This document shows, in pieces, positions 1,608-14,483 of a stretch of 64,000 nucleotides of DNA. The DNA lies in contig NZ_RZNC01000001.1 in NCBI RefSeq assembly GCF_004078655.1, positions 248,001-312,000 of the forward strand, given 5' to 3'. A program made the translations under genes and the position numbers. Below the pieces are notes generated by a model, which was not told where the DNA came from, made no database searches, and saw only the letters and a list, made by a program, of their open reading frames with translations. The stretch comes from Labedella populi. Lineage in GTDB: Bacteria > Actinomycetota > Actinomycetes > Actinomycetales > Microbacteriaceae. Within the stretch, counting starts at the first letter, position 1. Each line of letters opens with the position of its first letter.

Positions 1608-2300
1608 TCAGAAGAGGCGGGCGGCGCCGTCGTCGATGCCGCGCATGGCGTCGTAGTCGAGCACGAGGCAGCGGATGCCGCGGTCCTCGGCGAGGGTGCG
1701 GGCTTGCGGCTTGATCTCCTGGGCTGCGAAGACGCCGGTGACGGGGGCGAGGAGCGGGTCCCGGTTCATGAGTTCGAGGTACCGCGTGAGCTGTTCCACG
1801 CCGTCGATGTCGCCACGTCGCTTGAGTTCGACGGCCACGGATGCGCCCGCCGCGTCGCGCGCGAGGATGTCGACGGGCCCGATCGCGGTCATGTACTCGC
1901 GTCGGACGAGCGAGTGCCCGTCGCCGAGCAAGTGGATCTGCTCCGCGAGGAGCTTCTGGAGGTGCGCCTCGACGCCGTCCTTCTGCAGACCGGGGTCGAC
2001 GCCGAGGTCGTGAGCGGAGTCGTGCTCGATGTCGTGGATCGACACGATGAGCATGTCGGCGGTCTTCGAGTGTGTGACCTTCCACACCTCGGTGACGCCG
2101 GCCTCGCGCTGCGCCTCCTCCGGCTCGATGATGCTGAGCGTGCACGGCGGGCTCATCCAGTTCAGGGGCGCGTGCTGTACGTCTCGATGGAACGCCACAG
2201 TGCCATCGGCCTTGATCATGATGAGTCGGGTAGCGAGGGGAAGATGCGTGTTGAGCCGACCTGAGTAGTCGACCGAACAACGGGCAATGACGAGGCGCAC
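1608..2300 (-). CDS. nucS: Endonuclease NucS/EndoMS, chimeric: host C-terminus with island-encoded N-terminus
   Basis: 230 residues from GTG at 2300 ([16 protein letters not shown]). A longer reading to 2336 adds 12 residues absent from the family. NucS is the mismatch-specific endonuclease of actinobacterial non-canonical mismatch repair. The N-terminal DNA-binding/dimer domain runs to about residue 110 and the RecB-like nuclease domain follows ([29 protein letters not shown]). Codons 1 to about 48 have lower GC and differ from the stranded host 5' end at 14322-14483: about 14 substitutions, and a VQHA loop where the host copy has the longer GGSFK before PLNWMSPP. From codon 52 on, codon use is host-like. 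The switch lies in the 17-bp core at 2146-2162. The frame is intact, so the protein is probably made, driven from island DNA. Whether the chimera is fully active is unknown. Confidence 0.93.
2146..2162. repeat. Left island boundary (attL-like core) inside nucS
   Basis: GGCGGGCTCATCCAGTT, identical to 14326-14342 and overlapping the partial copy at 6834-6850. On the minus strand it encodes LNWMSPP of NucS. Host-like nucS sequence lies to the left and lower-GC island sequence, with a replacement nucS 5' end, to the right. The short identity at a coding site fits large serine recombinase integration; the exact crossover dinucleotide cannot be fixed by eye. Confidence 0.8.
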
Positions 2301-2599
2301 CGACCTATTGTCCCAAAACACGTCGCCAGCTGTCACTGGATCGAGTCTGCGCCCCCTTCATGATGAGTCCGCATCGTCGTGTCATCCCTGAGGTCGTCGC
2401 GCCGGATCGCGAGCCGCTGGCCTCTCTTCCGAGAACGGACACAGCTCACAGCTATGGACGCGAACGGAGTGAGCAAGAGCGAGCACTACACGAGGCGCTA
2501 GCCGAGACACGGCGTCGTCACGAAACCTATCGGACACTTCGTAACGCAGCCTCTGGTGCCGTCCGGCCTTCTAGCTGCCTGTTGGAAGCTCGCCGGCGT
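2301..2599. other. Intergenic DNA at left end of island
   Basis: About 300 bp between the start of chimeric nucS and the 3' end of the HxlR gene. It must hold the promoter now used by nucS. No convincing gene, terminator hairpin or repeat was seen; the open frame on the plus strand here has no family resemblance and no ribosome site. Confidence 0.5.
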
Positions 2600-2986
2600 C
2601 TATTGCGCCTGACCGTCGGAGCCGCCGGACACCTCTTGCCGTTGCGCCCATTGCACGAGGGGATGCAGGATTCGGATCAGTTCGTCACCTGACTCCGCCA
2701 GACGATAGGTGACCTGCACCGGAACCGTGGGAATCACTTCGCGCACTACGAGTTCACGTGCTTCGAGTTCTCGAAGACGGGCGCTGAGAAGTCGCGCTGA
2801 GATCCCGTCGACCGCGTGTTCGATCTGGGAGAAACGCGTGGCACCACGCGCGAGCGCTAGCAAGATCGCAGCGTTCCACTTCCTGCCAGCGAACTCCGCG
2901 GCGGCCCGGAAGACGCGACATGCTTCGTCGTCGATGTGATGGGCATGCAGAGCGGGGCCCGATGGGGTGGCGGTAGCGGAGGTCAT
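2600..2986 (-). CDS. HxlR-family transcriptional regulator
   Basis: 128 residues from ATG at 2986 (MTSATATPSG). A winged-helix HxlR domain covers nearly the whole protein: EFAGRKWNAAILLALARGATRFSQIEHAVDGISARLLSARLRELEARELVVREV, with the typical wing and TYRLAESGDELIRIL. HxlR proteins often sense aldehydes, quinones or thiol stress and regulate an adjacent divergent gene. Here the divergent neighbours are oxidoreductases, so it probably controls the 3027-6667 gene set and itself. A start 14 residues upstream is possible but would cover the likely promoter. Confidence 0.85.
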   Translation of the reverse strand: MTSATATPSGPALHAHHIDDEACRVFRAAAEFAGRKWNAAILLALARGATRFSQIEHAVDGISARLLSARLRELEARELVVREVIPTVPVQVTYRLAESGDELIRILHPLVQWAQRQEVSGGSDGQAQ

Positions 2987-3026
2987 GGTAACTAATAGTA
3001 AGCGCGTAACCCGCTGCTCGCAAGCC
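2987..3026. promoter_or_regulatory. Divergent promoter/operator between hxlR-type gene and reductase
   Basis: The 40-bp gap holds an AT-rich patch (GTAACTAATAGTAAGC, 2987-3002) with short symmetric arms ACTA/TAGT around a central base. It is a plausible HxlR operator overlapping both promoters; this is inferred from position and symmetry only. Confidence 0.4.
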
Positions 3027-3731
3027 ATGGCGGAGCTGCGCAGACTCGAGCTCGTGAGTTCAACGCATGAGAAGCAGGAGTCAGTCGTCCAAACGATTGC
3101 AGTGCTAGGGGTTGGCCGCGTCGGTTCTGCCGTGGCGCGAACGGCGCTCGCTGCGGGCTATGACACGCGGGTTGCCGGCTCCGGCGCCGCGGAGGACATC
3201 GAGTTGCTGGCCGAGATCGTGATCCCTGGCGCGCGCGCGATGACCGCTACGGACGCGGTGAGCGACGCTGACTTGGTCGTCGTCGCTGTGCCACTGAGTA
3301 AGTACCGCTCTGTAGACGCGAGCATGCTGGCGGGCAAGACTGTCGTCGACGCGATGAACTACTGGCCTCCAGTCGACGGTCAGATCGCGGACTTCGAAGA
3401 GGACATCGCGTCCACGAGCGAGGTAGTCAGCAGGTATTTCTCGGGCTCTCGAGTCGTGAAGACCCTCAACCACATCGGCTATCACGAGCTTGAGGACGAT
3501 GGCGCGCCGAGCGGGACAGCCGGTCGCCGGGCACTGGCGATAGCCAGCGACGACGAGGCGGCGGCTGCCGCGGTGCAGGACGTACTCGACAGGTTCGGCT
3601 TCGACACCGTGTACGCGGGGCCGCTGGCTACCGGTCGGGCCTTCGAGCCGGGGACGGCCATCTTCAATGGCGCCTTCTCTCAGAACGACCTCCTGAGGGA
3701 GCTCGAACTGAATCTCCACCCCACTCACTGA
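3027..3731 (+). CDS. NAD(P)-binding reductase, F420-dependent NADP reductase-like
   Basis: About 234 residues from ATG at 3027; GTG at 3054 is an alternative and neither has a clear ribosome site. A Rossmann motif (IAVLGVGRVGSAVARTAL) starts about residue 23, followed by DADLVVVAVPLSKYRSV, VVDAMNYWPP and VKTLNHIGYHEL, the pattern of the NPD/F420-NADP oxidoreductase and ProC-like coenzyme-binding domain. Such proteins reduce F420 or flavin-type cofactors, or act as small imine/ketone reductases. It heads a same-strand set with two luciferase-like monooxygenases and an SDR, so supplying a reduced cofactor to them is a reasonable inference, not shown. Codon use has lower GC than the host backbone. 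Confidence 0.75.
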   Translation: MAELRRLELVSSTHEKQESVVQTIAVLGVGRVGSAVARTALAAGYDTRVAGSGAAEDIELLAEIVIPGARAMTATDAVSDADLVVVAVPLSKYRSVDASMLAGKTVVDAMNYWPPVDGQIADFEEDIASTSEVVSRYFSGSRVVKTLNHIGYHELEDDGAPSGTAGRRALAIASDDEAAAAAVQDVLDRFGFDTVYAGPLATGRAFEPGTAIFNGAFSQNDLLRELELNLHPTH

Positions 3732-3751
3732 CTTCAGATCGAGGCACTCAT

Positions 3752-4789
3752 ATGGAACTCGGCGCGTATAGCTTCGGCGATACTCAACTCAACCCCGACG
3801 GTTCTCTCCGCTCTACAGCTGAGGCGATCAAGAACTTGTTCGACGCCATCGTGCTTGCGGACAGCGCAGGACTGGACTACTTCGCGGTTGGCGAGCATCA
3901 CACTCTAGAGATGCCCGCCTCCTCCCCCGGATCTATGATCGCTGCAGCCGCGGGGGCGACGAAGCAGATTCGGCTTGGCTCGGGCGTGAGCGTCATCAGC
4001 ACGGATGACCCCGTTCGGGTCTTCCAACAGTTCGCCACGGCCGACGCTGTTTCCGGTGGTCGTGTGGAGATCACTGCCGGGCGTGGGTCGTCCGTGGAGT
4101 CCTACCCTCTGTTCGGGTACAACCTGAGCGACTACGAACGGCTGTTTGAGGAGAAGCTCGAACTGCTCATGCGAGTGAACGAGCAGGAGCAAGTCACCTG
4201 GTCCGGTACGACCCGATCACCTCTGCAGGATCTGACGGTGGTGCCGCGTCCCGTGGACGGATCTCTGCCGTTGTGGGTTGGAACCGGCGGAAGCGCGCCG
4301 TCGAGCGTTCGAGCGGGCCGACTCGGGTTGCCGATCAGCTACGGCATCATCGGCGGGGCACCGCACCGGTTCGCTGCACTGTCCGATCTCTACCGTCGTA
4401 CCGCTGAGCAGGCCGGACACGCCGGCGCCAACATCAAGGTCTCCGTCGCCGCCCTTGGCCTGGTCGCGCCGACGAAGCAGGAGGCGCTGGAGCGGTTCTA
4501 CCCCGGATGGCGGAACATGCACACCCAGCTCGGCAAGCTCCGCGGCTGGCCGGCGCCGGATGACAACGCTTACCTCGCGCAGGCGCATGCGCCCGGCGCG
4601 TATTACGTGGGCGACCCCGACGATGTAGCGCAGCGCATCGTGCATCTGCACGGCTTTATGGGGCACATGCGTCATTTCCTGCAAATGGACATCGGTGGCC
4701 TTCCGCAAGAGCACTTCCTGGAGTCCCTCACCTTGCTGGCCACCGAGGTGAAGCCGCGCGTCGAGCGGCTCATCAGGATCGAGGGCTGA
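3752..4789 (+). CDS. LLM-class flavin-dependent oxidoreductase (copy 1)
   Basis: 345 residues, bacterial-luciferase-like TIM barrel of the full-length oxidoreductase type. Family signatures are GLDYFAVGEHHT (early barrel), AAAAGATKQIRLGSGVSV, DPVRVFQQFATADAVSGGRVEITAGRGSS (phosphate/flavin-binding region) and LPLWVGTGGSAPSSVRAGRLGLPISYGIIGG. These enzymes use FMNH2 or F420H2 to oxidise or reduce small organic substrates; the substrate is unknown. The gene starts 20 bp after the reductase and ends 2 bp before a close paralogue, so the genes form an operon and arose by tandem duplication. Confidence 0.87.
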   Translation: MELGAYSFGDTQLNPDGSLRSTAEAIKNLFDAIVLADSAGLDYFAVGEHHTLEMPASSPGSMIAAAAGATKQIRLGSGVSVISTDDPVRVFQQFATADAVSGGRVEITAGRGSSVESYPLFGYNLSDYERLFEEKLELLMRVNEQEQVTWSGTTRSPLQDLTVVPRPVDGSLPLWVGTGGSAPSSVRAGRLGLPISYGIIGGAPHRFAALSDLYRRTAEQAGHAGANIKVSVAALGLVAPTKQEALERFYPGWRNMHTQLGKLRGWPAPDDNAYLAQAHAPGAYYVGDPDDVAQRIVHLHGFMGHMRHFLQMDIGGLPQEHFLESLTLLATEVKPRVERLIRIEG

Positions 4790-4791
4790 CA

Positions 4792-5850
4792 ATGCACGAG
4801 GCGAGTCCCCTCGGAATGGAGCTGGGGGTCTACAGCTTTGGCGACACCCAGCGAAACGCGGACGGCACCCTGCGCGCCACTGCCGAAGCCATCGCCAACC
4901 TTCATGAAGCCATCGTTCTCGCGGATGCTGTCGGGCTGGACTACTTCGGAGTCGGAGAACATCACACCGTAGACATGCCCGCGTCTTCGCCGGGTGCGAT
5001 GGTTGCGGCGGCGGCCGGCGCCACGCAACAGATTCGCCTTGGCAGCTCGGTCACGGTCCTAAGCACAGACGACCCTGTGCGGGTCTTCCAACAGTTCGCC
5101 ACGGCTGACGCGATCTCGGGGGGCCGGGTCGAGATCACCGCGGGACGCGGCTCATCCGTCGAGTCCTACCCCCTGTTCGGATATGAGCTCAGCGATCACG
5201 ACCAGCTCTACGCCGAGAAGCTCGATCTGCTGATGACCCTCAACAGCGGGGAACGAACCAGTTGGTGCGGCTCGGTGCGCTCCGGCATCGATGACCTCGT
5301 CGTCGTTCCTCGGCCCGTGCAGGGGAGCCTGCCCATCTGGCTCGGGACCGGAGGCAGCGCCCCTTCCACAGTCAGGGCCGGTCGCCTGGGCCTACCAGTG
5401 TCCTACGGCATCATCGGGGGCATCCCGGCACGTTTCGGGCGCCTCGCCGACCTGTACCGGGCAACGGCCCAACGGTCCGGCCACCATGGTCCAAACATCA
5501 AGGTCTCGGCTGGCACCTTCGGTCTGATCGCACCGACGAAAAAAGACGCAGTGGACCGCTTCTATCCCGGGTGGCGAAACCTGCAGCTCCTGATGACGCA
5601 GCGCCGTCATTGGCCAGAGCCAGAGCGCGCTCGCTACGAAGAGCAAACTCACGCCCCGTTCGCGTACTACGTCGGTGACCCCGACGACGTCGCAGAACGG
5701 ATCATCGATCTGTACCGGCACCTCGGCCACATGCGCCACTTCTTCCAGATGGACCTCGGCGGCCTCCCGCACGAGCACTTCCTGGAAGCGATCACCCTGC
5801 TGGGCACCGAAGTCAAGCCGCGCGTCCAACGCCTGATAGACCGCCTCTAA
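4792..5850 (+). CDS. LLM-class flavin-dependent oxidoreductase (copy 2)
   Basis: 352 residues, strongly similar to the preceding protein along its whole length: MELGVYSFGDTQ, GLDYFGVGEHHTVDMPASSPG, GGRVEITAGRGSSVESYPLFGY and the C-terminal GGLPHEHFLEAITLLGTEVKPR all have counterparts. ATG at 4792 adds eight residues before MELGVYSF; ATG at 4816 would give the same start as copy 1 and is equally likely. The pair may form a heterodimer in the manner of luciferase alpha/beta subunits, or have split substrates. Only 2 bp separate it from copy 1. Confidence 0.87.
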   Translation: MHEASPLGMELGVYSFGDTQRNADGTLRATAEAIANLHEAIVLADAVGLDYFGVGEHHTVDMPASSPGAMVAAAAGATQQIRLGSSVTVLSTDDPVRVFQQFATADAISGGRVEITAGRGSSVESYPLFGYELSDHDQLYAEKLDLLMTLNSGERTSWCGSVRSGIDDLVVVPRPVQGSLPIWLGTGGSAPSTVRAGRLGLPVSYGIIGGIPARFGRLADLYRATAQRSGHHGPNIKVSAGTFGLIAPTKKDAVDRFYPGWRNLQLLMTQRRHWPEPERARYEEQTHAPFAYYVGDPDDVAERIIDLYRHLGHMRHFFQMDLGGLPHEHFLEAITLLGTEVKPRVQRLIDRL

Positions 5851-5911
5851 TCCCGACAACAGCCTCGTCCGTGGCGAGCGTGCCACGGCCCCGACAAAGG
5901 AGTACATCGTC

Positions 5912-6667
5912 ATGAACCGACTCGAAGGACGCGCCGCATTCATCACCGGCGCAGCTTCAGGGATTGGGCGAGCGCAGGCGCTACTTTTCGCCAGAGAGGG
6001 TGCCCGTGTCGTCGTTGCCGACCTCGATGCAGACGGCGCGGAGCGTGTCGCCGCACAGATCCGTACCGAGGGGGGCGACGCGGTCAGCACAGGCATCGAC
6101 ATCACGGACGAAGAGAGCGTGGCTACCGCAATCGCATTCGCGGTTGACGCGTATGGAACCATCGACACCCTGTCGAACACGGCCGGGATGTTCGACAAGA
6201 TGGTGCCTCTTGCGGACGCTGACCGGTCGTTCTTCGAGCGGGTACTGACGGTCAATCTCACCGGGATGTTCAACGTCACCAAGGCTGTCCTTCCGCACAT
6301 GCTCGCCGCAGGCAAGGGTGCCATCGTCAACATCGCGTCCGGCGCGGGACTGCGGGGAGGGGGTGGCGGAATCGGCTACACCTCTTCCAAGCACGCTGTC
6401 GTTGGGTTCACCAAGCAACTCGCCGCGGACTACGGCCGCAAGGGTGTCCGGGTCAACGCGATCGCTCCGGGACTGATCGACACGCCCATGGTCTCCCACT
6501 TCTCGAAGGCCCCCGAAACCGTCGCTGGCCTAAAAGCGCAGCCTGCCGGACGCCTTGGTCAGCCCGAAGACATCGCGAACGCCGCCCTGTTCCTCGCCAG
6601 CGACGAAGCCGACTTCATCCACGCCGTCACCCTGTCCGTCGACGGCGGCCAGGTCGACACCCTCTGA
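5912..6667 (+). CDS. SDR-family NAD(P)-dependent oxidoreductase
   Basis: 251 residues, classical short-chain dehydrogenase. The cofactor motif is TGAASGIG near residue 12, the structural motif is present as SNTAG in place of the usual NNAG, the catalytic Ser is in NIASGAG, and YTSSKHA provides the Tyr-x3-Lys pair. The C-terminal region RVNAIAPGLIDTPM is typical. A ribosome site AAGGAG precedes the ATG. It is the last intact gene of the HxlR-linked set and may oxidise or reduce an alcohol/ketone made or used by the two monooxygenases. Confidence 0.88.
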   Translation: MNRLEGRAAFITGAASGIGRAQALLFAREGARVVVADLDADGAERVAAQIRTEGGDAVSTGIDITDEESVATAIAFAVDAYGTIDTLSNTAGMFDKMVPLADADRSFFERVLTVNLTGMFNVTKAVLPHMLAAGKGAIVNIASGAGLRGGGGGIGYTSSKHAVVGFTKQLAADYGRKGVRVNAIAPGLIDTPMVSHFSKAPETVAGLKAQPAGRLGQPEDIANAALFLASDEADFIHAVTLSVDGGQVDTL

Positions 6668-6684
6668 CACAACGCGCAATCACC

Positions 6685-6709
6685 AGGAGGGGCGAACATG
6701 CGACCTTAG
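6685..6709 (+). other. Orphan ribosome site and start codon, rest of gene missing
   Basis: A strong AGGAGG (6685-6690) is followed after 7 nt by ATG at 6698, but the reading stops after three codons (ATG CGA CCT TAG). This looks like the beginning of a fourth operon gene deleted just after its start. The sequence from here to the terminator at 6795 has no recognisable coding content. Confidence 0.45.
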
Positions 6710-6794
6710 GTATTCGACGGAGAACGCAGAAGCCTCGAACGCCAACCCGATGGCGTCGGCGCCAATGATCTCGATGTCGCACCCGTCCCCAAAA

Positions 6795-6828
6795 GCGAAG
6801 GCCTGTGACGCCTGTCACAGGCCTTCGC
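6795..6828 (-). terminator. Strong hairpin terminator beside the middle att-like core
   Basis: Perfect 15-bp stem (GCGAAGGCCTGTGAC / GTCACAGGCCTTCGC) with a 4-nt loop. On the minus strand the stem is followed by CTTTTGGGG, a T-run typical of intrinsic termination. It lies 5 bp beyond the core at 6834, so it would stop leftward transcription coming through the nucS remnant. Confidence 0.8.
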
Positions 6829-6833
6829 GATCT

Positions 6834-6850
6834 GGGCTCATCCAGTTCAG
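6834..6850. repeat. Middle att-like core copy
   Basis: GGGCTCATCCAGTTCAG; the first 14 bases match the cores at 2146 and 14326, and the full 17 bases match the left copy (2149-2165). It separates the terminator-bearing end of one element from a second nucS 5' remnant, which suggests two related elements inserted in tandem at the same nucS site. Confidence 0.7.
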
Positions 6851-6952
6851 TGGCGAATACTGTACGTCTCGATGGAAGACCACTGTCCCGTCGGCTTTGA
6901 TCATGATGAAGCGGGTAGCGAGGGGGAGATGCGTGTTCAGTCGACCGGAGTA
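6834..6952 (-). pseudogene. nucS: Second nucS 5' fragment, truncated by IS
   Basis: In frame on the minus strand this gives [15 protein letters not shown]..., then KADGTVVFH..., then PLNWMSP, i.e. NucS residues about 12-51. It differs from the island-derived N-terminus of the intact gene at only about four residues but differs widely from the host fragment at 14322. Its first 11 codons are missing: the sequence ends at the IS inverted repeat. After NWMSP it runs straight into the core and terminator, so no functional protein can be made. Confidence 0.85.
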
Positions 6953-6964
6953 GGGCGTGTCTCC

Positions 6965-7423
6965 TCACCGCTTGAGCCAGAGGGTGATGGCTCTGAGGAC
7001 TGCGCCGCCGCGGTAGGTGAGGGCGAGATTGTCGTATCTGGTGGCGAGTCCGCGCCATTGCTTGTCTTCGTTGAATCCGCGTTCGACGACGTTGCGGCCC
7101 TTGTAGTCCTCGGCGTCGTAGCTGACCGGTCGTCCGCCGCGTGAGCCGCGACGCTGACGGTGTCCCCGCTGGTCGGAGAGCTCCGGGATGGCGGCGACGA
7201 TGTCACGCTCACGCAGGTGTTCCCGGATTGCGCGGGACGAGTACGCCTTGTCACCGCGAACACGTTCGGGACGGGTGCGGGGCCTGCCCAGTCCGCGTCG
7301 GGCGACACGCAGGTGGTCCATGAGCACCGGGAACATCGGCGCATCGCCGGCCTGTCCGGGGCCCACGAGCACGACCAACGGCAGCCCGCGACCATCGACA
7401 AGGTGATGGATCTTCGTGCTCAA
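6965..7423 (-). CDS. IS5/IS427-type transposase, second frame (OrfB)
   Basis: 152 residues from the first ATG, but the frame is open to about 7465 and joins OrfA by frameshift. It carries STKIHHLVDGRGLPL, GPGQAGDAPMF, the second catalytic Asp in RGDKAYSS and the Glu in RNVVERGF, so both catalytic residues of the C-terminal half are present. It ends 12 bp from the left inverted repeat. The element looks competent if frameshifting works. Confidence 0.85.
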   Translation of the reverse strand: MSTKIHHLVDGRGLPLVVLVGPGQAGDAPMFPVLMDHLRVARRGLGRPRTRPERVRGDKAYSSRAIREHLRERDIVAAIPELSDQRGHRQRRGSRGGRPVSYDAEDYKGRNVVERGFNEDKQWRGLATRYDNLALTYRGGAVLRAITLWLKR

Positions 7424-7451
7424 ACCGCCTCGTGACCGGCCAATGGCGTGA

Positions 7452-7847
7452 TCAGACGGCTCCTCGCGCAGATTCTAGTAACTCGATAGAGCCCCCTGTG
7501 TCGCGCGGGAGGTTCGTCGCGTGCTGATGCGCACGGTTGATGGTCGAGTCCACGCTGACCGCCCATTCGATCTCACCCGCCGCGTCCGCGTCAGCGAGAA
7601 TCTCCGCGTAGATCCGATCCCAGGTGCCGTCCCCGCTGAACCGGCGATGACGCTTCCATGCCGTCTGCCACGGCCCGAACTCGGCCGGCAGATCACGCCA
7701 CGGCGAACCCGTCCGATACCGCCACACAATCCCCTCGAGCACCCGCCGATGCGACTGAAACGGGCGCCCGCCCTTACGAGAGGCGACCGGCATCAACGGC
7801 TCGATTCGAGCCCAAGCAGCATCCGAGAGAGTACGAGTACGAGACAC
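7452..7847 (-). CDS. IS5/IS427-type transposase, first frame (OrfA)
   Basis: 131 residues. The N-terminal part (LSDAAWARIEPLMP, GGRPFQSHRRVLEGIVWRYRTGSPWRDLP, FGPWQTAWKRHRRFS) is the DUF4096-like DNA-binding region of these transposases, and VSVDSTINRAHQH carries the first catalytic Asp. The frame ends with SARGAV then stop, while the second frame picks up at EEPSDHAIGRSRGG, a shift of one base near 7450. Many IS427-type elements make the full enzyme by frameshifting between two such frames; a mutation is the alternative. Confidence 0.85.
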   Translation of the reverse strand: MSRTRTLSDAAWARIEPLMPVASRKGGRPFQSHRRVLEGIVWRYRTGSPWRDLPAEFGPWQTAWKRHRRFSGDGTWDRIYAEILADADAAGEIEWAVSVDSTINRAHQHATNLPRDTGGSIELLESARGAV

Positions 7848-7909
7848 GCTCCCCAGCCTGCATCCAACCCCTCGAAGAGGTTAGGAGACACGCCCTAGCC
7901 CCGAGGCGA

Positions 7910-8694
7910 TCAGAGAAGAAGCTGGCCACCGTCGACGGTCACTCCGGTTCCGGTGATGTAGCGGCTCTGATCGCTTGCGAGGAACAGAACCGCCTGGGCA
8001 ATGTCGTCGGGTACACCTTTGTAGCCGAGCGCCACGGTGGCAGCGGCCATGGTGTCGAGATCGATCACTGAGCTGGGATCACCGCCCTCAAGCGCACCCA
8101 GATCACCCCAGGCCGGGGTCTCGATGATGCCGGGGTGGATGGAATTCACTCGGATGCCTGTGCGGTTCTGGGCGCATTCGAGAGCTGCCACTTTGGTCAG
8201 CTGCGCGAGAGCCGCTTTGCTGGCGGAGTAGGCGGACATGTTCGCGAAGGGCTTCGTGGATGCCGCAGAGGAGAGATTGATGATCGAGCCGCCACCGCTC
8301 TCGGTCATCAAGGGGATGGCATGCTTCATGCCGAGGAACATGCCGTCCACGTTCACGGCAAAGATTGAGCGGAAGGTGCTGAGCGACATCTCGGTGAGCG
8401 GGGCTGGCCTACCGAGGCCGGCGTTGTTCAGTAAGACGTGTAGGGCTCCGTGCGTTGACCGCACGCTCTGAATCACATCGACCCAGGCCTGCTCGTCGGT
8501 GACGTCGATGCGGCGAACGACGCCTTTCCGCCCGCCGCGACGATTGCCTGGGTCGTGGCGCGCCCTGCTTCCCGATTGAAGTCCGTGAGGATGACGCTGG
8601 CGCCGTGGACGGCTAGCGTGGCGGCGCTGGCTGCTCCGATGCCCTGGGCGGCGCCCGTGACGAGGGCGACTTTGCCTTCGAGAGTTGCGTTCAT
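7910..8694 (-). pseudogene. SDR-family oxidoreductase broken by one frameshift
   Basis: Two adjoining frames make one SDR. The N-terminal half (8473-8694) has TGAAQGIG. The C-terminal half (7910-8476) has NNAGLGRP, the catalytic Ser in INLSSAAS, YSASKAA and a C-terminal GTGVTVDGGQLLL. The frames change near 8530: adding one G in the AAGGCG stretch would give GGKGVVRRIDVTDEQAW, a normal SDR connection. It may be a real inactivating deletion or an assembly error. The 3' end stops 15 bp from the IS right end. The next gene on the same strand is a flavin monooxygenase. Confidence 0.82.
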
Positions 8695-8756
8695 GAGGAA
8701 TCCGCTCTGTTTTAAGTGGCGCTCATACGCCGCTGTCCCGGGTTTTTGGGGGTGAA

Positions 8757-10079
8757 TTACTGCGTGACGCGAGGGTCTACACCGTACTGGGCTGGTGCGC
8801 CTAGGTGCTCGCGCAAGGTGGTGCCTTCGTAGTCGTGGTGGAAGAGTCCGCGGTCTTGCAGGATCGGCACGACACCGTCGACGAAATCGTCCACTCCGCC
8901 TTCTTCGAGGTCAGGCAGGATCCAGAACCCATCGGCTGCGTCGGCTTCGAACCATTCCTGCATGTGGTTGGCTGCCTCGACCGCTGGCCCGGTGATGACG
9001 GGGTGGTAGTCGATGACTCCGTGCGCGAGGATGTCTCGGACGGTCCAACCTTGATGGGCGACCTCGAGTGCGTGCACTGAACGCGGGTCTGCGGGTGATG
9101 GGCGCGCCGCTGCCAGTTGCTCGGGCGCGAGGGGGCGGTCAAGGTTTTTTGCATCGAGGTGCAGGCCGAGCATGTGTCCGAGGTACGAGGCGCGCTGGCC
9201 GAATACCCGTCCACTCAGGGAGATTCGCCGGTCGAGGCTCTCCCTCTTGGTAGGGGCGAGGGAGGTCATGAGACCGACGATGAATTTGATCTCGTCGGGG
9301 TTGCGTCCAGCACGCTCAGCCCCTTCACGGAACGCCTCCCGCTGCGCTCGCGCGTCGTCGATCGAGAATGCTGATCCGATCACGGCGTTAGCCCAGCGGC
9401 CCGCGAACTGGTGGGCGTTCGGGCTACCCCCCGCGTGGAAGATGACGGGCTGACCCTGCTCTGACGGCGGGATGTAGAGCGGCCCACGGGAGGCCACGTA
9501 CTGCCCACCCAAATTGATCGGAGCGACCTGGTCGGCGTGGGCGTAACGGCCCGATTCCTGGTCGTGGGTCCAAGCGGACTGTTCCCAACTACCCCAGAGC
9601 GCTTGCACGAGGTGCACCACCTCGTGCGCTCGGCCGTAGCGTTCGTGGCTGGGAGGTAGTTGCCGACCGTAGTTCGCAGCGACGTCCTCAGCGCTTGAGG
9701 TGACGGCGTTCCAGCCAGTTCGTCCGTGACTCAATACGTCGAGGGCTTTGAAATGGCGTGCAACATTGAACGGCTCGTTGAAGGTGGTCGACCCGGTAGC
9801 AACCATACCGATCCGGCTCGTCTCGCGCGCGACTGCCGCCAAGGTGACCATGACATCGAGATTGAAGCCAGGAGGTTCGTTGTCGAGGTCACCGACATGG
9901 CTGGGACCGTCGGGGAAGAACAAGAACTGCAGTTTCCCGCGCTCGGCTGCTTGAGCCTGACGAACTTTCGCGTCGAAACTGGTGTAGTTCGTGGGATCCA
10001 TGCCCGGTGCGCGCCATGACCCCGGTATCGTGCCGTAGCCATTACCCAGGTGCATGCCGATCAGCATTTGTTTCGTCAT
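8757..10079 (-). CDS. FMN-dependent monooxygenase, NtaA/SnaA/DszA type (copy 1)
   Basis: 440 residues, starting MTKQMLIGMHLGNGYG. Signatures of the nitrilotriacetate/DszA monooxygenase branch of the luciferase superfamily are YTSFDAKVRQAQAAERGKLQFLFF, GMVATGSTTFNEPFNVARHFKALDVLSHGRTGWNAVTS, YGRAHEVVHLVQALWGSWE, and SEQGQPVIFHAGGSPNAHQFAGRWANAV. Such enzymes use FMNH2 from a separate reductase to oxygenate chelators, sulfur heterocycles or similar; the substrate is unknown. The reductase gene that should sit upstream is reduced to a fragment (10181-10303), so activity would depend on another reductase, such as that at 12471. It is a homologue of the enzyme at 11119. Confidence 0.88.
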   Translation of the reverse strand: MTKQMLIGMHLGNGYGTIPGSWRAPGMDPTNYTSFDAKVRQAQAAERGKLQFLFFPDGPSHVGDLDNEPPGFNLDVMVTLAAVARETSRIGMVATGSTTFNEPFNVARHFKALDVLSHGRTGWNAVTSSAEDVAANYGRQLPPSHERYGRAHEVVHLVQALWGSWEQSAWTHDQESGRYAHADQVAPINLGGQYVASRGPLYIPPSEQGQPVIFHAGGSPNAHQFAGRWANAVIGSAFSIDDARAQREAFREGAERAGRNPDEIKFIVGLMTSLAPTKRESLDRRISLSGRVFGQRASYLGHMLGLHLDAKNLDRPLAPEQLAAARPSPADPRSVHALEVAHQGWTVRDILAHGVIDYHPVITGPAVEAANHMQEWFEADAADGFWILPDLEEGGVDDFVDGVVPILQDRGLFHHDYEGTTLREHLGAPAQYGVDPRVTQ

Positions 10080-10180
10080 CGTGTTTCTCTCTCTGTGCAG
10101 GCCGGCTTCGGCGTCTTGTCAGTTGCTTCTGGGCGCTCCGCGGGGCTTGAGCCACCGCGATCGTCAGGAACGTATGGTGT

Positions 10181-10303
10181 TCACTCGACGGTTGTAATAC
10201 GTGAGGGGGGGGCTACTTGGTCGTCTCGATAGTGTTCAAGAACCTGGAAGAGGACCAGCTCGTGGTCTCCAGCGGGGATGTATTGATGTGGTCGGACCAC
10301 GAA
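10181..10303 (-). pseudogene. C-terminal remnant of a flavin reductase
   Basis: On the minus strand the frame RIAATFVVRPHQYIPAGDHELV, then LFQVLEHYRDDQVAPP and a stop at 10181, matches the C-terminus of the intact flavin reductase at 12471 (DALATIAVAPRTVVEAGDHDLVLLEV). The rest of the gene is missing: at about 10300 it meets the FtsK-like fragment on the other strand. Position upstream of the monooxygenase matches the arrangement of the intact pair. Confidence 0.75.
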
Positions 10304-10304
10304 T

Positions 10305-11117
10305 GTGGCTGCTATCCGCTTCGAGGCGCACACCGTCGAGCCGATTGACAGACTCACCACCGAGAAGATTGAGGCAGACTTCTTCGACGCTCACCCCTGC
10401 ACGAACCCTTCCCTCATCCCGCTTGCGCGCACCGCGTTTGGTGATGTGTGGTCCCTGCCGCTTCACCACACGATCATCCTCGGCATGACTGGTTCCGGTA
10501 AGGGGTCGCCGCTCGCAGGTATCGTCCGCCAGCTTGCACCGTTCGTCGTGGAGGGTCGTGCGAAGCTCTATGGCTCTGACCCGAAGGCATCCAAACTGAA
10601 GCCCTACGGGTACTCAACCCTTTTCGAGGATCTTGCCTACGACGACCCCGAGATGGCCGCGATGATCGAGACCGTTCACGACATCATGAAGGACCGCACG
10701 AAGAACAAGCGCCTCGACCTCGACAACGCCGACCTTGGCCGTTCGCTTGAGTACACCACCGAGACCCCACTCATCGTGCTCATCATCGATGAGTTCCTAA
10801 GTCTCTTGATTCAGCTTCAGGAAATGGGCAAGGAGGGCAAGCGGACACTCACCCTTCTCACGGCGATCCTCGCTCAGGGCCGTTCTCTCGGTGTGCTTGT
10901 GGTAGCCGCTACTCAGGAAGCCGACAAGGAGCTATTGGGTCGCATGCGTGGCAACTTTGCTAATGCCATCGCCCTTAAGCAACCCTCCGAATACTTCAAT
11001 GATCTGTTCCTCGGTCAGGGTGCCGCCGCCGCTGGCTTCGACTCCACCAAGATCGCCCCAGCCAACAAGGCGAACAACTCCGCTGACGCGCCCTCGCATC
11101 GTACGACGCCAACCCTG
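10305..11117 (+). pseudogene. FtsK/TraB-type DNA translocase fragment
   Basis: About 265 residues are recognisable. After RFEAHTVEPIDRL comes Walker A GMTGSGKGS, a conserved SDPKASKLKPYG stretch, Walker B LIVLIIDEF, and a sensor-like VVAATQEADKELLGRMRGNFANAIALKQ. This is the motor domain of FtsK/SpoIIIE and of the TraB-like translocases of actinomycete integrative conjugative elements. The 5' end abuts the flavin reductase remnant and the 3' end stops at about 11117, where the sequence becomes the 3' end of the next monooxygenase; the open frame continues to 11387 but only as its antisense. GC is clearly lower than the host. It is evidence for a conjugative ancestor. Confidence 0.8.
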
Positions 11118-11118
11118 A

Positions 11119-12456
11119 TTAGGAGGTACCGCCCGCGACGCGGGGGTCGAGGCCGTACTGTGCGGGCACGCCGAGATTCTCTCGCAGGGTGGAGCCCACG
11201 TATTCCTCGGGGAAGATACCGCGTCTGCGCAGTTCGGGAACGACCTCATCGACGAACGCGTCGACACCGTCCTCATAGATGTCCGGGGAAAGCCAGAACC
11301 CGTCGGCGGCTCCCGCTTCGAGCCACTCCTGCAGGTGGTCCGCGTGCACCTCTGCTGGGCCGACCGTGGTCGGGTGGAAGTCGATGACACCGTGGGCGAG
11401 GATGTCTCGTGGGGACCACCCTTCGCGCGCAACTTTCAGGACGATCCCGGACCGCGGGTCCATCGGGGAAGCGTGCGCGGCACGCAGCTGGGCTTCTGTG
11501 AGGGGCTGGTCGTAACGGCTCGGGTCGAGCTGCAGTCCCAGCAGCGCGCCAACATGGGGCAGTCGGGCTTCGATGACGTCGCCTGACAGTGCGAGGCGGC
11601 GGTCAAGGCCCGCCCGCACAGTCGGAGCGACTGTGGTCATGAGTCCGGGGATGTACTTGATCTCGTCGGGGTTGCGCCCTGCTCGTTCGGCGGCATCTCG
11701 CACCATCTGACGCTGCGCTCTGGCTTCCTCGATTGTCCACACTTCGGCAATGAATCCGCTGGCGTAGCGGCCGGCGAGTTCGAGAAGGTGCGGGCTGGGC
11801 CCCCCGGAGGTGAATATGATTGGTTGGCCTTGCTCTGACGGGGGGATGGGCAGAGGTCCGCGTGAGGCGACGTGTTCGCCTTGCAGATTGACGGGACGAA
11901 GCTTGGATGCGTCGAGGAAGCGGCCGGACGCCTGGTCTTTGATCCACGCGTCCTTCTCCCAGCTGCCCCACAATGCCTGCACGATCTGGATCGCCTCGTT
12001 AGCACGCTGGTACCGCTCGGCACGGTCGGCGACAGGTCGGCCGTAGTTGGCAGAGACCATCGAGTCGCTGGTGGTGACCGCGTTCCACCCGGCGCGGCCG
12101 TGACTCATCGCATCGAGGGCTTTGAACTGGCGTGCGGTGTTGAACGGTTCCTGGAAGGTCGTGGATCCCGTCGCGATGAATCCGATGTTGCTGGTCGCTT
12201 GCGAGATCGCGGCTAGCGCCATCATCGGTTCCATGATGTTCTGGATGCCCGAGAACTCGACGTCCCCACGGACGGTGGGAAAGTCAGGGGTGAACAGGAA
12301 CGCGAATCCACCCCGCTCGGCGGCCTGGGCATAGCGGATGTTCGATTCGATGTTTGCGTAGTTTCCCGGGTCGACTTCCGGTGCCCGCCAGGCGCCAGAG
12401 ATGTTGCCGTAGCCGGAGTTCAGAGTCATTCCGAGGATCATTTTTTTATCTGCCAT
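11119..12456 (-). CDS. FMN-dependent monooxygenase, NtaA/SnaA/DszA type (copy 2)
   Basis: 445 residues from ATG at 12456 (MADKKMILGMTLNSGYG), preceded by AAAGGA. It has the same architecture as the enzyme at 8757: YANIESNIRYAQAAERGGFAFLF, GFIATGSTTFQEPFNTARQFKALDAMSHGRAGWNAVTT, SEQGQPIIFTSGGPSPHLLELAGRYASGF. The paired flavin reductase lies 14 bp upstream on the same strand, giving a complete two-component monooxygenase, and a MerR regulator is divergent from the pair. The C-terminus (DPRVAGGTS) is close to normal length, but the FtsK fragment abuts it directly, so a rearrangement endpoint lies at or very near its stop codon. Confidence 0.88.
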   Translation of the reverse strand: MADKKMILGMTLNSGYGNISGAWRAPEVDPGNYANIESNIRYAQAAERGGFAFLFTPDFPTVRGDVEFSGIQNIMEPMMALAAISQATSNIGFIATGSTTFQEPFNTARQFKALDAMSHGRAGWNAVTTSDSMVSANYGRPVADRAERYQRANEAIQIVQALWGSWEKDAWIKDQASGRFLDASKLRPVNLQGEHVASRGPLPIPPSEQGQPIIFTSGGPSPHLLELAGRYASGFIAEVWTIEEARAQRQMVRDAAERAGRNPDEIKYIPGLMTTVAPTVRAGLDRRLALSGDVIEARLPHVGALLGLQLDPSRYDQPLTEAQLRAAHASPMDPRSGIVLKVAREGWSPRDILAHGVIDFHPTTVGPAEVHADHLQEWLEAGAADGFWLSPDIYEDGVDAFVDEVVPELRRRGIFPEEYVGSTLRENLGVPAQYGLDPRVAGGTS

Positions 12457-12470
12457 GTGGGCTTTTCCTT

Positions 12471-12962
12471 TCAATGGGACAGCAGGTGTGTCGTGCTGTT
12501 GAAGAAGACGAGGGGCTGCTGCGTTTCGTCTCTGTGTAGGTGGGTCACCTCGAGAAGCACGAGATCGTGGTCTCCAGCCTCGACAACGGTGCGAGGGGCA
12601 ACGGCGATCGTCGCGAGAGCGTCGCGGATGTATACCGCACCGTCATCGATGTTCAATCCAACGCCTTGGAAACGCGCACCGGCAGGGCGCCGAAGAACAT
12701 CGAGGAGGGCAGCCTGCTCTTCAGCGAGAACGCTGATACCCCAGCGCGGCGCGGTGCGAAGCGCGGGCCACGTCGTCGACGTGCGCGCGAACGCGAGAGA
12801 CACAAGCGGGGGATCCAGGGACACCGAGGCGAGTGAGTTCGCCGGCATCCCAACGACCCGGCCGTCCAGTTCGGCGGCGACGACAGAGAGGCCCGTCGCG
12901 AATCCTGCGAGGGTTCGCCTCATCGCCGCCGATGTCACAGATTGCGGAACCGTTTGTGTCAT
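12471..12962 (-). CDS. Flavin reductase-like FMN-binding protein
   Basis: 163 residues from ATG at 12962 (MTQTVPQSV) with AGGATG 7 nt upstream. It is a small split-barrel flavin reductase: MRRTLAGFATGLSVVAAE, GMPANSLASVSLDPPLVSLAFAR, WGISVLAEEQ, and the C-terminal GDHDLVLLEVTHL. It supplies reduced FMN from NAD(P)H to the monooxygenase encoded 14 bp downstream, as HpaC- and NtaB-type reductases do. Transcription probably starts in the gap shared with the MerR gene. Confidence 0.88.
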   Translation of the reverse strand: MTQTVPQSVTSAAMRRTLAGFATGLSVVAAELDGRVVGMPANSLASVSLDPPLVSLAFARTSTTWPALRTAPRWGISVLAEEQAALLDVLRRPAGARFQGVGLNIDDGAVYIRDALATIAVAPRTVVEAGDHDLVLLEVTHLHRDETQQPLVFFNSTTHLLSH

Positions 12963-13005
12963 GCATTCATCCTGCAACCTTCACATAAGTGGTAATGTCA
13001 AACCC

Positions 13006-13024
13006 AGGTCGAAAAGGTCAACCT
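13006..13024. promoter_or_regulatory. Candidate MerR operator in divergent promoter
   Basis: Inverted repeat AGGTCGA-N5-TCAACCT with one mismatch. On the minus strand a TTGACA hexamer (12996-13001) follows, a possible -35 for the flavin reductase/monooxygenase pair. Position between a MerR gene and its divergent target fits the family pattern. Not tested. Confidence 0.5.
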
Positions 13025-13038
13025 GCAGACGGAGCAAC

Positions 13039-13428
13039 ATGCGAATCGGAGAACTCTCCAAAAAAACGGGCGTAGCATCGCGTATGCTCCGCTACTACGA
13101 AGAGCAAGGGCTGATCAGCCCGACACGGCTCGACAACGGCTACCGCGACTACCAGGACTACCTCATCGACCGTGTCGGCAAGATACGGGGCCTCGTGGAC
13201 TCCGGTATCCCGTCCCGCATCATCGTCGACATCCTCCCCTGCCTAGATCAGGAGCAAGACATCGTCGTCCGCAACGTGGAGCCCGGCCTTCGTGACCTGC
13301 TGGCACAGGAGCGCGACCGGATGTCGCAGAAAATCGACTTCCTCACCCAGAACCGCGACGCCATCACTAAATACATCGCGGCCCTCGACGAGGCTGCCAC
13401 GGAGGCCCCGCTCGCGAGCGCCAGCTAG
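13039..13428 (+). CDS. MerR-family transcriptional regulator
   Basis: 129 residues from ATG at 13039 with GGAG 4 nt before it. The N-terminal winged helix is MRIGELSKKTGVASRMLRYYEEQGLISPTR, followed by the LDNGYRDYQDY wing and a predicted coiled-coil dimer helix (LLAQERDRMSQKIDFLTQNRDAI). There is no clear effector-binding Cys cluster or aromatic pocket domain, so it is of the short MerR type. It is divergent from the flavin reductase/monooxygenase pair and probably controls that pair by changing promoter geometry at 13006-13024. Confidence 0.87.
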   Translation: MRIGELSKKTGVASRMLRYYEEQGLISPTRLDNGYRDYQDYLIDRVGKIRGLVDSGIPSRIIVDILPCLDQEQDIVVRNVEPGLRDLLAQERDRMSQKIDFLTQNRDAITKYIAALDEAATEAPLASAS

Positions 13429-13500
13429 CTCCAGCTCTCGGCAGGGGTGTCGAGGATGCCGGAGTCCACCCTCATGAGCATGGCTGCGCACGGGGGGCTT

Positions 13501-14274
13501 ACAGCGTTCCCAGACCGTGGGGAACTGCTCGATGATCGCGGTGGGTTCCGTGGCGTCTGATAGTGCGCGGGAGAGTACCCAACGACTTCGCAGGATCGCG
13601 CGAAGACGGTCGGCGCGCTCGTTCGTTTCTGCAGCAGTCGTCTTGTCCATTGCGGCCACGCGGCGAAGAACCTCATCGGAGTCCGCGTTCTCCGAGTGGA
13701 CCTTTAGGAAGAGCTGCCAGTCAATAGCAGGGATTCCCAAGATCGGATGCGCGAGCGCCTCTTCCACGAACACATCCATGAGGAGCTTGCAGCGAGGGAG
13801 TCGCCCGTAGTTGTTGCCACCGCCATGGACGGGCTTCATGCTCACCAGATCCGCCTTGTGGGGATATGCAGCAGCATTTGCAGGCGCGATCACACCGCGG
13901 CGCTCGATCGGGTCTTTGGAGTCGCGCACGTACTGCCACCAGTAGTCCCGCCACTCCGCGGCGTATTCGAGTTCGAGCATGCGGCGCATGAGGCGCGAGA
14001 TTGAGTAGGCAATGATGTGGCTGTATCGACCAGCGCGCGCGCCTTCGAGCAATGCGGCGTAGGCCGTACGAATCTTCAGCTTGCTTGTCTTGTCCGACGC
14101 GCCGATGTCGTTGTCGACCTTGACGTCGATTACCTCGAGGCCGTGGCGTTCAGCGACTTCGCGGCACGGCCGTTCCTGACGCTCGACACCCTCGCCGTCG
14201 CCAGTTGCGTCGCGTGAGATGCGGCAATAGATCGCTGCACGGTCGTCGTCTTGCATGTTCGCGACGCTGCCCAC
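13501..14274 (-). pseudogene. Truncated large serine recombinase fused to an unknown fragment
   Basis: From GTG at 14274 (GAGGGG upstream) residues 12-95 are the N-terminal catalytic domain of a serine recombinase: AAIYCRISRDATGDGEGVER (catalytic Ser in CRIS), a conserved Asp-Asn-Asp stretch (VKVDNDIGASD) and YSHIIAYSISRL. After about residue 96 the expected recombinase continuation and zinc-ribbon/coiled-coil DNA-binding domains are absent. Instead about 160 residues of an unrecognised sequence follow (EYAAEWRDYWWQYVRDSK, RRGVIAPANAAAY, GIPAIDWQLF) to about 13501, after which the open frame is only antisense to the MerR gene. It lies 50 bp from the right island boundary, the usual place of an integrase. 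As it stands it should be inactive. Confidence 0.8.
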
Positions 14275-14321
14275 GACCTATCCCCTCGATCCTGCGATGT
14301 GGGCCGATCGCAAATACACGC

Positions 14322-14483
14322 TTAGGGCGGGCTCATCCAGTTGAGCGGCTTGAAACTGCCGCCGTCCGAATGGACGAGGAGGCTGCCGTCGCCCTTCACG
14401 ACGAGGAGCCGCTTCGCGAGGGGGAGATGAGCGGTCAGTCGTCCGGCATAGTCGACCGAGCAGGTCGCGATCACGAGGCGCAC
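14322..14483 (-). pseudogene. nucS: Stranded host 5' end of nucS
   Basis: From GTG at 14483 ([16 protein letters not shown]) through KPLNWMSPP, then a TAA directly past the core: 53 codons of a typical actinobacterial NucS N-terminus, including the conserved DGGSFKPLN loop. Codon use is host-like and high GC. It lies downstream of the MFS gene on the same strand in what must be the original nucS position. Joining it to the host part of the gene at 1608-2145 would give an ordinary NucS of about 231 residues, so this is the 5' half cut off by island insertion. Confidence 0.92.
14326..14342. repeat. Right island boundary (attR-like core)
   Basis: GGCGGGCTCATCCAGTT, identical to 2146-2162. Island sequence lies to the left (unrelated, giving an immediate stop to the nucS fragment) and host nucS 5' sequence to the right. 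It marks the end of the composite island, about 12.2 kb from the left core. Confidence 0.82.

Follow-up and report, generated by a model that had tools for sequence, protein, structure and literature searches.

The nucS locus of Labedella populi

We analysed a 64,000-nucleotide stretch of the Labedella populi genome (the whole stretch is referred to as the window, and its genome as G000), focusing on the interval 1608–14483, in which an intact nucS gene and displaced pieces of nucS border putative integrative elements. The intact gene lies on the minus strand at 1608–2300 and is complete by Pfam, matching both NucS_N (8.7e-27) and NucS_C (9.8e-43). A second nucS 5′ end is stranded at 14322–14483, also on the minus strand. 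The first 48 codons of the intact gene have a guanine–cytosine (GC) content of 0.604, compared with 0.667 in the stranded copy and in nucS of three other species of the genus, and the 48 residues that they encode share 62% identity with the stranded copy. From there on, the intact protein is 93–95% identical to the three genus relatives, and the stranded 5′ end is 96–98% identical to them over 48–49 residues. Therefore, the 3′ part of the intact gene is the host's own, while its 5′ part (∼2149–2300), which is joined to the 3′ part in frame, is foreign.

Both copies end their similarity at an exact 17-bp repeat, GGCGGGCTCATCCAGTT, which spans the NWMSPP codons and forms the core of an inner junction at 2146–2162 and of an outer junction at 14326–14342; the stranded copy meets a TAA directly past its core. 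Allowing up to three mismatches, the core occurs at three sites in the window against 0.20 expected, and three sites were reached in none of 100 shuffles. The GC content of 500-bp segments is 0.576–0.672 within the interval and 0.682–0.750 in the flanks shown, omitting segments that straddle the edges. On the promoter side, only a −10-like hexamer could be discerned by eye ahead of the start codon.

In all three of the other species of the genus searched, nucS is a single uninterrupted frame of 234 amino acids. Junctions formed by a repeat, with an empty site in the relatives, are the mark of a site-specific element, and here the element also supplies a new in-frame 5′ coding sequence. These results bear out a preliminary description of the locus, which had recognised a complete NucS with a divergent, low-GC start of about 48 codons, a host-like 5′ end stranded at 14322–14483, the identical 17-bp sequence at both places and the lower GC content between them. 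It had suggested the comparison with close relatives and had named outcomes that would speak against it (relatives sharing the low-GC start, no nucS across the joined site, or a fragment at 14322 that is a separate conserved gene); none was found, and the fragment is the host's own nucS 5′ end.

The same description took the interval to be one element inserted within nucS and carrying its own 5′ replacement. The chimera and the empty sites uphold the insertion and the replacement, while a single element spanning 2162–14342 is contradicted by a third nucS 5′ copy at 6834–6953 (minus strand), because of which the interval is divided into two elements. This copy is of the foreign type and runs from codon 12 to the core. 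It was found by a repeat search and by a protein search of the window's own genome, with 87% identity to the left copy over 120 bp; its 37 residues from codon 12 onwards share 89% identity with the start of the intact gene. It terminates in AACTGGATGAGCCC, the core, beyond which the DNA is unrelated. Upstream, it is truncated by an IS4/5-type insertion sequence (6951–7897), whose transposase lies in two frames and which adjoins codon 12 of this middle copy, the start of which is gone.

The two elements are thus stacked. The first, E1 (2163–6833, ∼4.7 kb), adjoins the rebuilt gene, and the second, E2 (6848–14325, ∼7.5 kb including the insertion sequence), adjoins the host 5′ end; the third copy is the displaced 5′ end of E2. 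E2 is a decayed serine-recombinase/FtsK element with metabolic-looking genes. Its serine-recombinase remnant (13243–14274, minus strand) starts ∼50 bp inside the right junction and is recognisable only in the catalytic domain (13966–14241), a resolvase N-terminal domain (PF00239, 3.9e-11). An FtsK/TraB-like remnant (FtsK_SpoIIIE, 6.5e-6) lies on the plus strand at 10305–11387. Both remnants had been noted in the preliminary description. The distal end of E2 is marked by the motif CCTAAGCGTGTATTT (14312–14326, minus strand), which is common to payloads of two other genera.

Recurrence of core-ended nucS copies

We surveyed 398 genomes of the family Microbacteriaceae, one per species, and matched nucS in 379. 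In five of the 398 (G000, G085, G140, G184 and G312), which represent five genera including that of the window, an intact nucS is preceded on the same contig and strand by one or more core-ended 5′ copies of the gene. The closer look took in 19 family genomes, comprising 16 others with more than one nucS match and three with a single partial or weak match. We rejected genomes with a frameshift or gap within one nucS copy (G012, G284, G363, G385 and G386), with nucS pieces at contig ends (G115, G341 and, from the genus searches described below, G779, which has two pieces), with a second match that is a weak match to the C-terminal part elsewhere (G076, G095, G116, G261 and G277), or with a single match only (G008 and G101). 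A sixth family case, G142, was dropped and left out of the count because its second copy lacks the core; this decayed 5′ piece (locus L045, 5518–5616) covers residues 4–36 and lies ∼5 kb upstream of the intact gene. As a separate observation, G284 and G363 (loci L048 for G363 and L047 for G284) are one base short in CCCGCC directly past the nucS core compared with other genera, which breaks the frame and may be a sequencing error or a scar.

The other four carriers repeat the arrangement of the window to different extents. In G312, of another genus, the chimera is split in the same way, with an N-terminal part 67% identical to its own stranded copy and a C-terminal part 97–99% identical to genus mates, and the stranded copy matches both of the genus mates compared at 100% identity. 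The chimeric N-terminal part in the window is 90% identical to that of G312, while the C-terminal parts are 78% identical. In G184, two nucS 5′ pieces precede the intact gene, and a second contig holds an uninterrupted nucS whose upstream flank matches the filled one; this uninterrupted nucS differs from the stranded copy at one of the first 147 bases. In G085, a match to Alpinimonas psychrophila DSM 23737 (Microbacteriaceae), the intact gene is preceded by four nucS 5′ pieces at intervals of ∼0.9–1.0 kb (three) and 3.3 kb; one piece is decayed and lacks the core, and another is a short remnant with it. Defining a payload as the DNA between successive nucS 5′ copies, we count 11: four in G085 (three of ∼1 kb; the decayed copy serves as one of the boundaries), two each in the window and G184, and single ones in G140, G312 and G993, the last introduced below.

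Nine displaced cores could be compared within the family. At five of these, from three genera, CYTARGNGTGTATTT follows within a few bases past the core. This motif occurs once in the window against none in 100 shuffles, and in nine of 105 loci, all from G000, G085 or G140. A contig search with the exact distal-end pattern returned Alpinimonas only, a pattern too strict for counting carriers. By eye, the NW (or NC) codons are followed by an in-frame stop no more than 11 codons on, in all nine displaced cores and in G993. Possible inverted-repeat arms about the central TG were not clean by eye and are not claimed. Two solved relatives were found, EndoMS (5gke) and NucS (2vld), both of archaeal origin, and each retains the NW and the second P of the motif.

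Beyond the family, an order survey of 396 genomes (34 of the family and 362 of other families) found more than one nucS 5′ match only in G000 and G142. In a phylum survey of 396 genomes, 115 of which had a nucS 5′ match at an E-value of 1e-4 or better, more than one match was found only in G000 and in G993, from another actinobacterial class. G993 contains, in order, the host 5′ end, a serine integrase, a Rep-like gene, an AAA and subtilase gene pair, and a complete nucS whose 5′ end is divergent; nucS is uninterrupted in G929, of the same genus. The integrase is intact (512 amino acids, with PF00239, PF07508 and zinc-ribbon domains) and reads away from the host 5′ end. The Rep-like protein matches PF01446 under its curated cut-off. 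Both nucS copies of G993 share AAGCCGCAGAACTG and diverge past it, so the crossover would have occurred at or before AACTG.

nucS as a candidate attachment site

The NW-x-x-P codons of nucS are, very probably, a chromosomal attachment site for integrative elements that insert by a single crossover, replace the 5′ end of the gene and stack. In the mechanism that we propose, a circular element would carry a nucS 5′ end, complete with promoter, that stops at the core, with the distal end of the element beyond it. A single reciprocal crossover at the core would insert the circle, leaving the host 5′ end upstream with an early stop and fusing the 5′ end of the element in frame to the host 3′ part, to give an intact chimeric NucS frame with a new promoter, whose product is presumably expressed and active. 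The core is restored in the rebuilt gene, which would allow stacks to form; a newer element would insert beside nucS and push the older one upstream. In the window, E2 would have come first and E1 second, since the rebuilt gene uses the 5′ end of E1, an order deduced from position. A serine integrase is the best candidate for the crossover because such a gene was found ∼30–50 bp from the junction, reading away from it, both in the window (as a remnant) and in G993 (intact). Among the open reading frames (ORFs) scanned, a subset of those in the islands, a recombinase was recognised only in these two of the 11 payloads and none in E1; E1 and the small cassettes may have been moved by an enzyme supplied in trans.

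Several results weigh against this reading. The window holds no complete integrase, only the catalytic-domain remnant of E2. This remnant and the G993 integrase are barely related (26% identity over 88 amino acids, E-value 0.014) and therefore support each other by position only; to judge from their sequences, two distantly related serine recombinases occupy the same nucS codons. A search for PF07508, which took in eight genomes and whose control was positive in 3/14, found no match in the five family carriers, which counts against present self-mobility; matches were present in G142, G308 and G114. The distal motif is absent from the other four of the nine displaced cores, where the sequence past the core differs. 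No second nucS 5′ copy was found in the 362 genomes of other families in the order survey (five of which have no match at all), and no further core-ended second copies in 36 genomes of the genera of G140, G184 and G312 (13, 15 and 8, respectively). Viral contigs yielded neither a free attachment site nor a phage carrier. In G140, the rebuilt 5′ end departs from the stranded one at only one of 147 bases; in G184, it does so at 20 of 147, ten of these in the first 20. These mismatch patterns indicate that homologous recombination or gene conversion acted in both genomes; they would require gene conversion on top of the proposed insertion, or homologous recombination in its place.

This last possibility is the strongest rival, namely a homologous single crossover anywhere in the ∼150-bp homology, using circles or concatemers with a truncated nucS and no site-specific enzyme after a first event. 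It would account for the 5′ segments of G140 and G184, which look recombined within the segment (in G184 with mismatches concentrated at the gene start), and it sits well with the lack of a PF07508 recombinase in the family carriers. We consider it unlikely, as displaced copies stop at the same codons though the following DNA differs (the nine family cores and G993), the foreign 5′ end in the window and that of the host, at 62% protein identity, make a poor substrate, and serine-recombinase sequence adjoins the junction in two cases.

Homing is considerably less probable still. Here, an endonuclease would cut the conserved nucS motif and repair would proceed from the nucS piece of the element. 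One Alpinimonas payload (locus L040, 5343–6011 of the reverse complement) does encode an HNH protein with homing-endonuclease-associated repeats (PF18780, 2.4e-22), but it is the only one of the 11 to do so, and homing normally replaces the 5′ end rather than duplicating it. An assembly error or chance duplication without any mobile element, which the draft state of the genome (15 contigs) might invite, is scarcely credible: contigs ranging from 16 kb to ∼290 kb show the same arrangement, with shared junction motifs, in four further genera of the family and in a species of another class.

A phage origin was rejected: two DNA-pattern scans of viral contigs were empty, and two protein scans gave 14 and three pattern matches without a relative among them. 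The foreign 5′ end matched five phage-collection records, of which the two examined are unannotated faecal scaffolds, each with a complete nucS, and it matched 11 plasmid records. The E2 catalytic domain was matched at an E-value of 1e-12 or better in 35 of the 398 family genomes. The best match besides the window's own is a 518-amino-acid recombinase in G308 (64% identity over 92 amino acids), which adjoins an FtsK-like protein that is 48% identical to the FtsK remnant of E2 over 253 amino acids (10320–11078); no nucS adjoins the G308 element within the 18 kb read. More generally, the nearest integrase carriers fetched (G308, G134, G114, G344 and G031) have no nucS match in the stretches read.

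An insertion site within nucS that keeps the frame open while making it chimeric, its N-terminal part foreign and its promoter probably so, connects incoming mobile DNA with possible effects on repair. A candidate site and enzyme for laboratory tests are at hand in the core and in the intact integrase of G993.

Payloads and comparison with known systems

The recognised genes of E1 and E2 look metabolic or regulatory (luciferase-like monooxygenases, short-chain dehydrogenases, a flavin reductase, an F420/NADP oxidoreductase, and MerR and HxlR regulators). E1 encodes an HxlR-type regulator (2600–3028, minus strand) and, on the plus strand, an F420/NADP oxidoreductase-like protein (2967–3731), two luciferase-like monooxygenases (3752–4789 and 4792–5850) and a short-chain dehydrogenase (5912–6667). 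Elsewhere, defence genes are frequent, with a strong PADLOC match in five of the 11 payloads: PD-Lambda-5 A and B in G085, a type II restriction-modification pair and PDC-S46 in the two of G184, PDC-S06 in G312, and IetAS in G993, where the AAA and subtilase pair matches IetA (3.9e-66) and IetS (7.4e-29). Two further payloads (G085 and G140) pair a ribbon-helix-helix protein with a small unknown protein and are toxin–antitoxin-like by arrangement only; in the G085 version the small protein has no Pfam match and neither protein has a PADLOC match. These two cassettes are 85.0% identical over 580 bp, beginning in the core region, and both genomes have GAGCCGACCCCGTACTCTGG ahead of the nucS start codon. 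Seven of the 11 payloads are thus defence- or toxin–antitoxin-like, two of them by gene arrangement only. Besides the HNH payload, those remaining are one with a DUF1643 protein and the two metabolic-looking ones of the window.

This cargo suggests how defence genes may stack at a fixed place by means of cassettes without their own recombinase. More tentatively, it is possible, if still doubtful, that nucS serves across the Actinomycetota as a docking site for recombinase-free cassettes, each made of a payload and a portable nucS promoter-and-exon that acts as both attachment arm and repair patch. Unrelated serine integrases would have converged on the NW-motif codons because this stretch cannot drift, and the cassettes, the newest nearest nucS, would depend for movement on the integrases of elements that visit without staying. 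With every arrival, the N-terminal part and the promoter of NucS would be swapped, which may then alter the mutation rate and the barrier to divergent DNA.

Insertion that rebuilds its target gene is known from SXT in prfC and from islands in dusA; what is new here is nucS as the target, the association with serine integrases, and the stacks of payloads without a recognised recombinase. The search for nucS as an attachment site returned no description among the matches listed, which covers titles and abstract openings in the open-licence literature and so does not establish absence from print. Integron cassettes are likewise small, lack a recombinase, are stacked at one site and have variable cargo; unlike them, every nucS cassette brings coding sequence from the 5′ end of its target. 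Staphylococcal cassette chromosome (SCC) elements use serine recombinases. SCC, pseudo-SCC and composite islands resemble the nucS stacks in their repeated insertion at one gene, tandem composites, members without recombinase genes and restriction-modification cargo (PMC6243372). Their target, orfX (rlmH), stays intact and the excerpt describes no replacement 5′ exon, whereas nucS is both the target here and rebuilt.

Rebuilding of the target gene has been described for SXT in prfC (PMC2791158). SXT/R391 elements are ∼100 kb elements of gammaproteobacteria with a tyrosine integrase and prfC as their target, whereas the nucS payloads are ∼1–8 kb and the recombinase remnant belongs to PF00239. 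For dusA-specific islands such as IMEVchUSA3, expression was measured with a lacZ fusion (PMC8409611); these islands differ in their integrase, 21-bp imperfect repeats, dusA target, Vibrio host and mobilisation by IncC plasmids. G993, with its integrase and Rep-like gene, resembles serine-recombinase integrative and mobilisable elements. Integration of the site-specific ones among these disrupts dispensable genes according to a 2017 review (PMC5704250), whereas the nucS elements rebuild their target. Like actinomycete integrative and conjugative elements, E2 has a recombinase at the junction and an FtsK/TraB-like protein, but its decay is too advanced for it to be classified; of their integrase, translocase and Rep triad, the window has the first two as remnants and no Rep among the ORFs scanned.

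Two further observations concern genomes met in the recombinase searches. G308 has six PF07508 matches, the most among the eight genomes searched. In G114 (contig C226, loci L082 and L094), a large serine recombinase of 466 amino acids lies at about codon 34 of an HhH-GPD-like gene; a second 5′ end of the interrupted gene was not found nearby, and the ORFs beside the recombinase appear, by eye, to be SEFIR-like and RelA/SpoT-like.

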